DNA from: Isosphaera pallida ATCC 43644
GTDB taxonomy: Bacteria > Planctomycetota > Planctomycetia > Isosphaerales > Isosphaeraceae
Assembly (NCBI RefSeq): GCF_000186345.1
Contig: NC_014962.1
Coordinates: 1,984,001 to 2,048,000, forward strand
Length of the DNA: 64,000 nt
Direction: 5' to 3'
The notes below the pieces were generated by a model. That model was not told the origin of the DNA. It was given only the letters and a program-made list of their open reading frames with translations, and did not search any database. Positions 42,473 through 48,465 of this stretch are shown piece by piece (the stretch's first letter is position 1; every line of letters begins with the position of its first letter). A program made the translations under genes and the position numbers.

Positions 42473-43639
42473 TCACTCGACGACGACCAGCGCGGGGGGT
42501 TCGGGTTGGTCCGGGCTGGGGGGATGATCCAGTTCGACGCGAATGGTCCGTTCGAGGAACGCGCACAAGGTCCGGACATTGGTGAGGAGATGGCCAGTGG
42601 CGTGACCGACACGAAAACGCGAACATCCTGAGGCCAGAGCGAGCGGCAACAACAATTGATCGCCCGAATATCGATCAATCGCCGCATGAGGGGCAGCGAG
42701 ATGATCTTCGAGCTGGTCGAACGCCTCGTCAGCCACCGCCTCTGACGATTTGCCCGGTCGTCCCAACCCCACGAACCCCGCGACCAACGGCGGAGACGGG
42801 CTGGGTGGAGGGATCGTTTGGCCACTGGCGGCCACGCCCGGCGACTCGCCGGCTGGGTCACAATCATCGCTGGTGGGATCTTCGAATTCCACCGTGATCC
42901 CCACCGCGCAGCCGGTCCCGTCGGAGGGCGATTGAACAAGGCGATCCACGATCTCCGCCTCGCCGAGTTGGGGATGATCGGTCAATCGGGTCTGGACCCT
43001 CTGAATCAGGCGTCGTCCAATAGACTCGGGCAACCGCGACACCACCGCGTCGATCAAGACCCGTTGGGGACGACCCCGTTGGGTCAGGGTCACGGGCCGG
43101 GGACGGCCCGGCGGGATCTCAGCCTCAAGCAAACCGCCGCCCCGGGGATAATAACCAGCGCGGGGGCTTCGCAACACGCAGTTCAACCCCACACGCGCTT
43201 GATGAACTCGCCAAACCCGATCGAGGAATGGCCAGGAGGGAGCCGCCAGGTTGTAGGTTCCGCCCCGAAGCGTCAGGGTCGTGGAGTGCGTCAGGCCAAG
43301 TTTGGCCCCTTGGATCGCCACAATTGGAACGAGCGTCTGCAGCAACAATCCGGTCGAACCAGCCGTGCCGATGTCGTACTCAAAGGGACGAATCTCGAAC
43401 CCTTCCGACGGTTCGAAGCGCAGGGTCCGCGACCCCACCTCCGCCCCCTGAGCTTGGGCTCCGGTCAGCGCGACTAACGCCTCCACGCAGGCCAGATGTT
43501 GAGGACGAAGCCCGGGATGGTCCCGGTTGGCCCGAATCCGGTCGATTCGGAACGGACGACCAGTCAGAACCGACAGGGTTAGGGCGGTTCGCAGGATTTG
43601 CCCCCCTCCCTCTCCCTCCCCGCCATCGAGTTCCACCAT
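42473..43639 (-). CDS. rtcA: RNA 3'-terminal phosphate cyclase
   Basis: Converts RNA 3'-phosphate ends to 2',3'-cyclic phosphates using ATP via an AMP-histidine intermediate. The N-terminal GGEGEGGGQILRTALTLS is the family signature, followed by RANRDHPGLRPQHL and GTAGSTGLLLQTL. The catalytic His is in HATGHLLTNV near the C-terminus. At 388 residues it is about 45 longer than usual because of a Pro/Gly/Ser-rich insert at about residues 245-290. ATG 43639 was chosen since family homology begins there. No rtcB ligase or rtcR regulator is nearby, unlike in the classical operon. Confidence 0.93.
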   Translation of the reverse strand: MVELDGGEGEGGGQILRTALTLSVLTGRPFRIDRIRANRDHPGLRPQHLACVEALVALTGAQAQGAEVGSRTLRFEPSEGFEIRPFEYDIGTAGSTGLLLQTLVPIVAIQGAKLGLTHSTTLTLRGGTYNLAAPSWPFLDRVWRVHQARVGLNCVLRSPRAGYYPRGGGLLEAEIPPGRPRPVTLTQRGRPQRVLIDAVVSRLPESIGRRLIQRVQTRLTDHPQLGEAEIVDRLVQSPSDGTGCAVGITVEFEDPTSDDCDPAGESPGVAASGQTIPPPSPSPPLVAGFVGLGRPGKSSEAVADEAFDQLEDHLAAPHAAIDRYSGDQLLLPLALASGCSRFRVGHATGHLLTNVRTLCAFLERTIRVELDHPPSPDQPEPPALVVVE

Positions 43640-43833
43640 GAGCCAATCCACCGTCGTTGCCAACCGATTGACCTCAATCGGTTGGTTTGACCAACATCCA
43701 CTCCAACACTTCCGCCAACTCGACTCCGTCGCGCCAATCCATCCACCGAGGCCGCTTTGCTTGATCGTTGGAGGCGGCCTCTCCCCAACGAATTGGCCAA
43801 CCCAATAACCGCCGCGCGGCCGCGATGCGCGAC

Positions 43834-44184
43834 TCACGACGTCGGAGTGGACGTCCGGCCAATCAAATCGAGAACCAAAATCACCAGCATCACTAACCCG
43901 ACGATCACCATCGCCAAGCCGGGCATCGGTTTTCGGGTCTTGACGTAACGGAACCCGAAAAAGATGGTAAGCAACAAGGTGATGATCGCCGAAAGCAAGA
44001 TCGCGATAAACCGCAAATCAGGGTTGAGCGTCAAAAGAAGGAAGGTCAGGAGTAGGATGGCAAAAATCACGCCGGTGATCACCGAGATCCGACTCCCAGT
44101 CCTCATGAAGCCCAAAAATCCGCCGGACGCCACCAGGATGGCGTAGATGAGGATCGCCACTTGAATGACCTGGAGACTCAACAT
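43834..44184 (-). CDS. TMEM14/UPF0136-like small membrane protein
   Basis: A 116-residue protein with four membrane helices. The first loop, GGFLGFMRTGSRISVITG, matches the Gly-rich signature of the TMEM14 family, whose eukaryotic members are mitochondrial and help in heme precursor transport and whose bacterial members are uncharacterised. ATG 44184 has GGAG nine bases upstream. It is on the same strand as rtcA with 194 bp between, and diverges from the SOUL heme-binding gene; a heme link between the two neighbours is only a suggestion. Confidence 0.8.
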   Translation of the reverse strand: MLSLQVIQVAILIYAILVASGGFLGFMRTGSRISVITGVIFAILLLTFLLLTLNPDLRFIAILLSAIITLLLTIFFGFRYVKTRKPMPGLAMVIVGLVMLVILVLDLIGRTSTPTS

Positions 44185-45494: not shown

Positions 45495-47321
45495 ATGAAA
45501 GCACGAACTTTTGAGGACGCGACTGGGGAGTGGACGGGGATGGATGGTCCGCAGGTGGCCCGCGCGCTTCGGGAAATGGGCGTGTTGCTGGAATTGCGGG
45601 GCGAAAACGCCTTTCGCTGCAAAGCGTATTACAACGCCGCCGACGCGCTGCGGGGAATTGACGACTTGGCCGAGAAGATCAAGGATGGCGGCAAGGCGTT
45701 GGAGGGTTTGCCGGGTCTGGGATCGTCCATGTTGCGCAAGGTGGCTCAGCTCGCCTTGACCGGTCAGTTAGCCGAACTCGATGAACTGCGGCGCACCACT
45801 CCACCCGGCCTTTTGGAACTGTACCGCGTGCCGGGTTTGGGTCCCTCGAAGATCAAGGCGTTACGCGAGGGTCTGCAAATTGAAAGCCTCGCCGCGCTCA
45901 AGACCGCAGCCCAGACCGGCCAACTCGCACGGCTGAAAGGATTCGGACCGAAATCCCAGGCGTCCATTCTGGAAGCGATCGCTTTTCTCGAACAGGCTAG
46001 TTCCCGCTGTCTGCTCGACCAGGCCGACGGCTTCGCTCGGGCCTTAAGCCAGTCACTGGCGTCTTGCCCACTCATCGACAGTTCGAGGAGACTAGAACCC
46101 ACTGGGGAACTCCGTCGGCGGGTAGAAACCATCGGCGCGGTGGAACTGCTGGCGGTTCCCGCCAGCGGCCAGATCCACCCAGCGGAATTGGAACAGCTTC
46201 ACGCCAGCTGGGCGCGGCTCGGCTGGATCCGTGAACTCCGGTCCCAAAGTCTCGAAACCCCAGGTCCACCCGGCTCGCCGACCTTTGAGCTCGGCGTGTT
46301 GGAGGGTCGAGTCGGCGACGGCGTGCCGATCCGTCTCATCCTCTGCCCACGGGAACGCCTGGGATGGACCCAACTTTCTCGAACTGGTCCTGACTCGCAC
46401 GTCGCCGAATTCCTTGATCACGCCGCGCGTCGAGGCCGATCGACCTGGCCGATCGACGCGGAGGACGAGGCGACAATCCACCACAGTCTGGACCTGCCCT
46501 TCATTCCGCCCGAACTCCGCGACCAGCCCGGCGTGGTCGCCCGCGCCGCCCGTGGCCTCCTCCCCCGTCTGGTGACCCTGAGCGACCTCCGCGGCGTCTT
46601 CCATTGCCACACCGATTGGAGCGACGGCGCTCAAACGCTCGACCAAATGGCCCAGGCCGCCCGCGATCGGGGCTTCCACTACCTCGGGGTGGCGGACCAT
46701 TCGCAATCCGCCTTCTACGCCAACGGCCTCAGTCCCGAACGGGTCCACGCCCAGGCCGCCGCGATCGACCAGCTCAACACCCAGCTCGCCGGCGCGTTGC
46801 GGCTCTTCAAAGGCATCGAGAGCGACATCCTCGCCGAAGGTCAGCTCGATTACGCCGACGAACTGCTGAGGACGTTCGATTACGTCGTGGTTAGCGTCCA
46901 TTCCTCCTTTCGACTCAGGCGGGACGCCCAAACCGAACGTCTGATCCAGGCACTACGTCACCCAAACGCCACGATCTTGGGACATCCCACCGGACGCCTG
47001 TTGTTGGCGCGTGAGGGTTACGCGGTCGATCTCGATCGGGTTTTGGAGGAGGCGGCCCGTCTGGGCAAAGTGGTGGAGATTAACGCGAATCCCCATCGTC
47101 TCGATCTGGACGCCGCCCATGCCCGACGCGCCAAGGAGCTGGGCTTGCTTCTGGCCATCAACCCCGACGCGCACTCGATCGACGGTTTGGACGATGTGAG
47201 ATACGGCGTGGATGTTGCAAGGCGCGCTGGTTTGGAGCCGGGCGACCTACTCAACACGCTCGAAACCGACGAGGTGGCCGCGCGGCTGGCTGCTCTTAAA
47301 CGACTGTCCGGCAGTTCGTAA
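45495..47321 (+). CDS. polX: PolX-family protein, PHP nuclease intact, polymerase site degenerate
   Basis: A 608-residue bacterial PolX. Order: helix-hairpin-helix and 8-kDa-like region (about 15-175, with GLPGLGSSMLRKV, VPGLGPSKIKAL and LKGFGPKSQ), palm/nucleotidyltransferase-like region (about 180-340), and C-terminal PHP phosphoesterase (about 360-605). The PHP metal ligands are all visible: FHCHTDWSDG, VADHS, GIESDI, SVHSSF, GHPTG, NANPHR and NPDAHS. The palm motif, normally GSxRRxxETVGDxD, reads TGELRRRVETIGAVE, so the two catalytic Asp are A215 and E217, and no third Asp is evident in VPIRLILC. It should therefore be a 3'-5' nuclease or phosphatase without polymerase activity. ATG 45540 is a possible alternative start. 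Confidence 0.9.
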   Translation: MKARTFEDATGEWTGMDGPQVARALREMGVLLELRGENAFRCKAYYNAADALRGIDDLAEKIKDGGKALEGLPGLGSSMLRKVAQLALTGQLAELDELRRTTPPGLLELYRVPGLGPSKIKALREGLQIESLAALKTAAQTGQLARLKGFGPKSQASILEAIAFLEQASSRCLLDQADGFARALSQSLASCPLIDSSRRLEPTGELRRRVETIGAVELLAVPASGQIHPAELEQLHASWARLGWIRELRSQSLETPGPPGSPTFELGVLEGRVGDGVPIRLILCPRERLGWTQLSRTGPDSHVAEFLDHAARRGRSTWPIDAEDEATIHHSLDLPFIPPELRDQPGVVARAARGLLPRLVTLSDLRGVFHCHTDWSDGAQTLDQMAQAARDRGFHYLGVADHSQSAFYANGLSPERVHAQAAAIDQLNTQLAGALRLFKGIESDILAEGQLDYADELLRTFDYVVVSVHSSFRLRRDAQTERLIQALRHPNATILGHPTGRLLLAREGYAVDLDRVLEEAARLGKVVEINANPHRLDLDAAHARRAKELGLLLAINPDAHSIDGLDDVRYGVDVARRAGLEPGDLLNTLETDEVAARLAALKRLSGSS

Positions 47322-48390: not shown

Positions 48391-48465
48391 GGCCCCGTCG
48401 TCTAGCCAGGTCCAGGACACAGGATTTTCATTCCTGCAACACGGGTTCGAATCCCGTCGGGGTCA
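48391..48465 (+). tRNA. tRNA-Glu (anticodon TTC)
   Basis: A 75-nt tRNA with full cloverleaf: acceptor GGCCCCG pairs with CGGGGTC (one G-U), the anticodon arm is CAGGA-TTTTCAT-TCCTG with anticodon TTC, and the T-arm is ACGGG-TTCGAAT-CCCGT. The discriminator base is A. CCA is not encoded, so it must be added after transcription. Confidence 0.96.

Follow-up and report, generated by a model that had tools for sequence, protein, structure and literature searches.

A PolX-type protein of Isosphaera pallida with a decayed polymerase site and a retained PHP nuclease site

We analyzed a stretch of 64,000 nucleotides (the window) from the genome of Isosphaera pallida ATCC 43644, the type strain of a hot-spring planctomycete with a chromosome of 5,472,964 bases and a plasmid of 56,340 bases (PMC3072084). 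The window holds the gene of a PolX-type protein (Table 1), the only PolX match in the I. pallida genome. The closest solved structures by sequence are the PolX proteins of D. radiodurans and T. thermophilus, and the protein has the canonical domain order of 8 kDa domain, thumb, palm, fingers and PHP. HHH_8, HHH_5 and PHP scored above the Pfam cut-offs, bearing out the initial annotation in its statement that the helix-hairpin-helix region is retained. The Pol beta thumb stayed below threshold (18.7 bits, with a cut-off of 25), and the Pol beta palm gave no Pfam match at E-values up to 1. The top NCBIfam match was the PolX model NF006375, at 373.8 bits and below its cut-off of 426.

Table 1. 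Features of the PolX gene and of its surroundings, in positions of the window
Feature	Positions	Strand	Details
RtcA (RNA 3'-terminal phosphate cyclase) gene	42473-43837	-	opposite in strand to PolX and upstream of it, two genes between
PolX-type protein P0001	45495-47321	+	608 aa, ATG start; 8 kDa domain, thumb, decayed palm and fingers, PHP
8 kDa domain, HHH_8, residues 17-91	45543-45767	+	Pfam PF14716, 57.8 bits; columns conserved in canonical PolX kept 6/6
Thumb helix-hairpin-helix, HHH_5, residues 108-162	45816-45980	+	Pfam PF14520, 31.4 bits; conserved thumb columns kept 11/12
Palm motif TGELRRRVETIGAVE, residues 203-217	46101-46145	+	S205 to E, D215 to A, D217 to E; G204, R207 and R208 unchanged
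Palm stretch, residues 227-271	46173-46307	+	inserts at 227-233, 252-256 and 264-271, peculiar to this protein among the 53 rows of the first alignment
R280 at the third catalytic Asp position	46332-46334	+	from the alignments
Former dNTP-binding stretch of the fingers, SRTGPDSHVAEFL, residues 295-307	46377-46415	+	YF to SR (steric gate), GS to GP, K to D, N to V, R to L
PHP nuclease region, residues 369-603	46599-47303	+	Pfam PHP at 369-530; PolX alignments reach residue 600
tRNA gene	48391-48465	+	flanked by genes for a PIG-L family deacetylase and a PMT_2-type membrane protein

We found no operon partner for PolX, as the 16-17 kb around the PolX genes of ten relatives showed no common neighbourhood. 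Out of nine other window proteins tested, the DUF1559 protein alone matched near PolX, in 3 of the 10 relatives, and its family is presumably repeated in these genomes. RtcA was not found near PolX in the ten relatives.

The polymerase site was read from two alignments, a first one of 53 PolX rows, with a single row for each locus, and a wider one of 239 rows; of the latter, two are reference sequences, seven come from plasmids and one is a duplicate (L054/L176). With the duplicate removed, the 238 remaining rows comprise 218 canonical sequences (D/D/D or D/D/E), 18 noncanonical ones, among them the window protein and that of D. radiodurans, and 2 fragments that stop short of the palm. These row counts are not frequencies, because some rows were fetched for matches running into the palm and the sampling was not random. 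Nine repeat loci (L205, L217-L224) were left out of the counts, as were entries that are not PolX or that repeat one (L056-L069, L087, L088, L201, L204); L054, whose protein end is the same as that of L176, was left out of the trees and of later counts.

Both alignments put Ala215 and Glu217 where the first two catalytic Asp would stand, as the initial annotation had proposed, and the third position is occupied by R280, so that the triad reads A/E/R instead of D/D/D and the earlier impression that no third Asp is visible holds as well. E217 is thus the one acid left where a canonical polymerase site has three. In the first alignment, D occupies the three catalytic positions in 52, 51 and 52 of the 53 rows, and the position of the palm-motif Ser, said earlier to be Glu, is indeed Glu205 in the window and S in 52 of the 53; the combined change of triad and Ser205 is far from chance. 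This palm GS-motif Ser binds dNTP phosphates. Set against the alignment consensus, the dNTP site as a whole carries S205E, R282I, Y295S, F296R, S299P, K300D, N303V and R307L.

The losses are concentrated in two domains. Scoring the columns with at least 90% conservation among the 218 canonical PolX rows, we found that the window protein keeps 6/6 in the 8 kDa domain, 11/12 in the thumb, 9/17 in the palm, 9/16 in the fingers and 52/53 in the PHP domain. The palm spans 90 residues, where 41 canonical Isosphaeraceae have a mean of 71.1 in the corresponding alignment columns, and nine alignment columns are missing at the fingers end, domain boundaries here not being those of PMC9226535. A frameshift or assembly artefact was considered and rejected: canonical palm-fingers sequences match the gene's own frame best (40.4 bits, E 1.7e-8), while any other frame reaches at most 25.0 bits for this region. 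Third-position GC is 0.70 in the palm and 0.69 in the fingers, with a range of 0.63-0.78 in the other domains.

The PHP site has been kept. All nine metal ligands, which the initial annotation took to be retained, are present in the alignments (H370, H372, H402, E442, H469, H497, E528, D558 and H560). Mutations of F440, R469, R474, N498, R503 and K545 are reported to cripple the PHP activities of B. subtilis PolX (PMC6616362). The equivalents in the window protein, mapped by spacing and motif at a constant offset of 32 rather than by sequence alignment, are in that order F472, R501, R506, N530, R535 and R577; they are identical except for Arg in place of Lys at K545, and R577 adjoins the more conserved R576. 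The PHP domains of other PolX proteins are reported to act as 3'-phosphatase and AP endonuclease (PMC9226535, PMC6616362), and that of the window protein may have both activities.

An AlphaFold2 model of the window protein, made with 56 sequences (the plasmid rows and two typed references were left out), has a mean pLDDT of 93.2, with ten-residue means of 81-97 over residues 201-290. In this model the palm is folded and carries an extended hairpin; palm and fingers have decayed in frame and are predicted to be still folded. A model of L244, a PolX of the planctomycete f52 clade (mean pLDDT 93.9), lacks the palm helix seen at 229-240 in the window model. The top structure match of the model is Thermus PolX 3au6 (Z 43.0, rmsd 5.1, 546 aligned residues), followed by D. 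radiodurans PolX 2w9m (Z 40.7, rmsd 15.4, 532 aligned residues); the high rmsd of the latter probably reflects a different domain arrangement.

PolX proteins of this kind have been described. Prostova et al. 2022 reported 809 PolX (27.5%) with altered triads, most of them in one cluster made up mainly of Bacteroidetes and Deinococcus-Thermus, with smaller separate groups besides, and they found that the PolX of D. radiodurans (AEE) and of D. gobiensis have no polymerase activity and a strong Mn2+-dependent 3'-5' exonuclease (PMC9226535). Deletion of the palm or fingers is stated there for many noncanonical PolX and is not defining. The window protein, which has the triad substitution, the dNTP-site substitutions and the intact HHHEHHEDH motif, and no palm deletion, is a further case of this known kind. 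Like the Deinococcus noncanonical PolX (D. radiodurans, 2w9m; D. gobiensis), it has lost the triad (AER, against AEE in D. radiodurans, the Ala and the Glu being common to both), has an altered dNTP site next to an intact HHHEHHEDH, and has the same domain order; unlike it, the window protein belongs with Isosphaeraceae by its 8 kDa, thumb and PHP domains, has a longer palm, and comes from a genome with no Ku match. With the PolX of Thermus thermophilus (3au2/3au6), the highest-scoring solved structure, it shares the five-domain fold, although the Thermus protein is a polymerase with triad and dNTP site intact (canonical in PMC9226535). Actinobacterial PolX-like proteins resemble it in having a PHP domain without a working polymerase, but the polymerase domain and some of the 8 kDa domain, both present in the window protein, are missing from them (PMC12926913). 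The same source, a 2026 survey, puts conservation at 95% of PolX1 for the PHP site and at 75% for the polymerase site, and gives X-family members as present in over 90% of Planctomycetes (PMC12926913). The main text of PMC9226535 names neither planctomycetes nor Isosphaera, and our literature search found no paper on the window protein.

We then placed the protein within its family, Isosphaeraceae. A PolX match was found in 44 of 45 family genomes and none in the remaining one. The 46 PolX rows from these 44 genomes are DDD in 44 cases, the exceptions being the window protein (AER) and L052 (DND); a clade-wide loss, which the initial annotation had raised, is ruled out by these rows. Second PolX copies occur in two genomes of the family (G004 and G029), as L052 and L051; L052 is a copy truncated at a contig end, and both genomes are listed with 9-10% contamination. 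In a tree of 62 rows built without palm and fingers, which holds no Bacteroidetes sequence and one Deinococcus row, the window protein lies within Isosphaeraceae with support 100/99. Its closest relative outside palm and fingers is the canonical L007 (genome G020), with 60% identity over 439 columns; unlike the window protein, canonical Isosphaeraceae PolX keeps GS.RR, all three D and the dNTP-site motif. Because of this placement, the polymerase site was most likely lost separately and in place in the Isosphaera lineage. Transfer of the whole gene from a noncanonical donor is disfavoured by the same tree, in which the 15 other noncanonical rows need five state changes, at least three of them forced by starred branches and the window protein not counted. 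Forcing the window protein together with f52, a noncanonical planctomycete PolX clade, and alphaproteobacterial noncanonical rows was not rejected when palm columns were excluded (AU p 0.244, from a quick tree).

The search of genome contigs yielded no close relative of the window protein, only four loci with a best identity of 43%. The palm-fingers segment alone found no strong match in the 44 other family genomes: the top two matches (E 4.5e-4 and 0.0028) lie in frames with stops at positions unrelated to PolX, and the next (E 0.005) is the PolX of G012. On a fixed topology, the terminal branch of the window protein is 54.5 times the Isosphaeraceae median for palm and fingers, 3.8 times for PHP and 10.3 times for 8 kDa domain and thumb; in every domain it exceeds all others among the 42, and the palm estimate of 8.0 changes per column is saturated.

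With considerable confidence, we read the protein as a noncanonical PolX, a DNA-binding repair nuclease that arose from a canonical Isosphaeraceae PolX by in-place loss of the polymerase site. The initial annotation's reading, a PolX whose polymerase site is dead and whose PHP nuclease is intact, stands as the best one.

The alternative that survives best is that the palm-fingers segment was replaced by recombination with a noncanonical PolX of another lineage. The window palm scores 80.8 bits with a profile of 15 noncanonical palms and 31.7-43.6 bits with canonical profiles, built from 15 canonical sequences in each of 50 draws; two other losses, L147 and L202, by contrast score about equally with noncanonical and canonical profiles. 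Trees of palm and fingers alone, from which eight fragments or partial rows were left out (L030, L052, L102, L103, L188, L237, L248, L249), likewise put the window protein with other noncanonical PolX, and the AU test on these domains gives p 0.034 against grouping the window protein with Isosphaeraceae alone and 0.042 against grouping it with Isosphaeraceae plus neighbours. A profile of decayed palms would, however, favour any decayed palm, because lost site residues are penalised less. Moreover, once the polymerase-site columns are removed, palm and fingers of the window protein are 26.8% identical to f52 and 26.5% to Isosphaeraceae, f52 and Isosphaeraceae being likewise 26.8% identical to each other, and the core stretch 200-221 averages 47.7% identity to Isosphaeraceae and 46.6% to f52. 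Palm length also argues against a swap from these groups: over the same columns the palm has 49 residues in four f52 proteins and 46.7 in the alphaproteobacterial rows, 41-43 fewer than in the window protein. Since the window protein is equidistant from f52 and Isosphaeraceae, and its palm is longer where f52 and alphaproteobacterial palms are shorter, we read the palm signal that links it to noncanonical PolX as convergence; a palm swap is disfavoured, and we hold it improbable.

Two further alternatives are much weaker still. That weak polymerisation persists at a relocated or Glu-based metal site draws on the acidic residues E217 and E205 and on D. radiodurans PolX (AEE), for which an earlier report of primer extension is cited in PMC9226535, but with the third Asp replaced by R280, with changes in the dNTP site at the steric gate, GS, K and N, and with the earlier D. 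radiodurans activity having failed to reproduce (PMC9226535), we give it very little credence. Equally far-fetched is a whole gene decaying without function, which the long branch in all domains (3.8 to 54.5 times the family median) would suit, in view of the full-length open frame, the 52 of 53 conserved PHP columns and 9 of 9 ligands, the coding-like third-position GC in all domains, and the status of the gene as the sole PolX match of its genome.

Similar changes recur in other PolX proteins. Among the 18 noncanonical rows, the palm GS-motif Ser is acidic in 12, compared with 0 of 218 canonical rows; the third Asp is Arg in 10; and the positions of G204, R207 and R208 are unchanged in all 18. 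Lineages that stand apart in the tree show these Ser-to-acidic and Asp-to-Arg changes. The f52 clade (L230, L244, L245, L247) has lost its triads (AAR, ECR, EAR, TER) and has shortened palms; when palm and fingers are left out of the tree, its sister group is the PolX of alphaproteobacterial plasmids (DAR, DSQ, DAQ). A second noncanonical planctomycete clade, f32 (L238, L239, L241, L242), has the triads RAR, AAR, GSR and AAR and shortened palms, with shortened fingers in the two members whose fingers were compared. L055, from a MAG labelled Nitrospirae, has a PolX with the triad SLS and the same Ser-to-Glu change as the window protein (GELRR). Speculatively, and with the odds against it, loss of the polymerase site might be a repeated and selected remodelling, in which the emptied site becomes an internal salt bridge or a clamp that grips DNA and passes its 3' ends on to the PHP nuclease; the window protein would then be a single-lineage example in an almost wholly canonical family. 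The main text of PMC9226535 contains none of the terms S188, S180, Ser180, salt bridge or convergent.

We also surveyed possible repair partners. Ku was found in 0 of 45 family genomes, that of I. pallida included, with a positive B. subtilis control. A role in NHEJ, as suggested for noncanonical PolX (PMC9226535), therefore fits the window protein poorly as far as Ku goes, because neither its own genome nor 44 family relatives has a Ku match; end trimming in other repair would be a likelier role. That PolX is the only AP endonuclease of I. pallida is unsupported, as the genome has one nfo match; it has no exonuclease III match. Across Isosphaeraceae, counting matches over the cut-off, exonuclease III is patchy (10/45) and Nfo nearly universal (42/45).

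Beside what was computed, namely the triad and dNTP-site changes, the intact PHP ligands and DNA path, the predicted fold, the placement in the family, the single PolX match and the lack of a Ku match, we infer the activity of the enzyme, its substrate, a scaffold role and its role in the cell as follows. The 8 kDa domain and the helix-hairpin-helix thumb would hold gapped, nicked or broken DNA. Palm and fingers would keep their fold and serve as a scaffold, binding neither catalytic metal nor dNTP. The PHP domain would trim 3' ends as a Mn2+-dependent 3'-5' exonuclease, perhaps with AP-endonuclease and 3'-phosphatase activity, and synthesis would be left to another polymerase. A canonical Isosphaeraceae PolX would be the ancestor, its polymerase site having been lost in place in the Isosphaera lineage.

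The window protein adds a probably separate polymerase loss to the known pattern, in the type species of its genus, in a family that is otherwise almost always canonical and in a genome with no Ku match. Together with canonical PolX of the L007 type, it forms a close pair for asking what a non-polymerising palm does. If confirmed, the finding would argue that a bacterial PolX can be selected for trimming 3' ends in settings other than Ku-based end joining.
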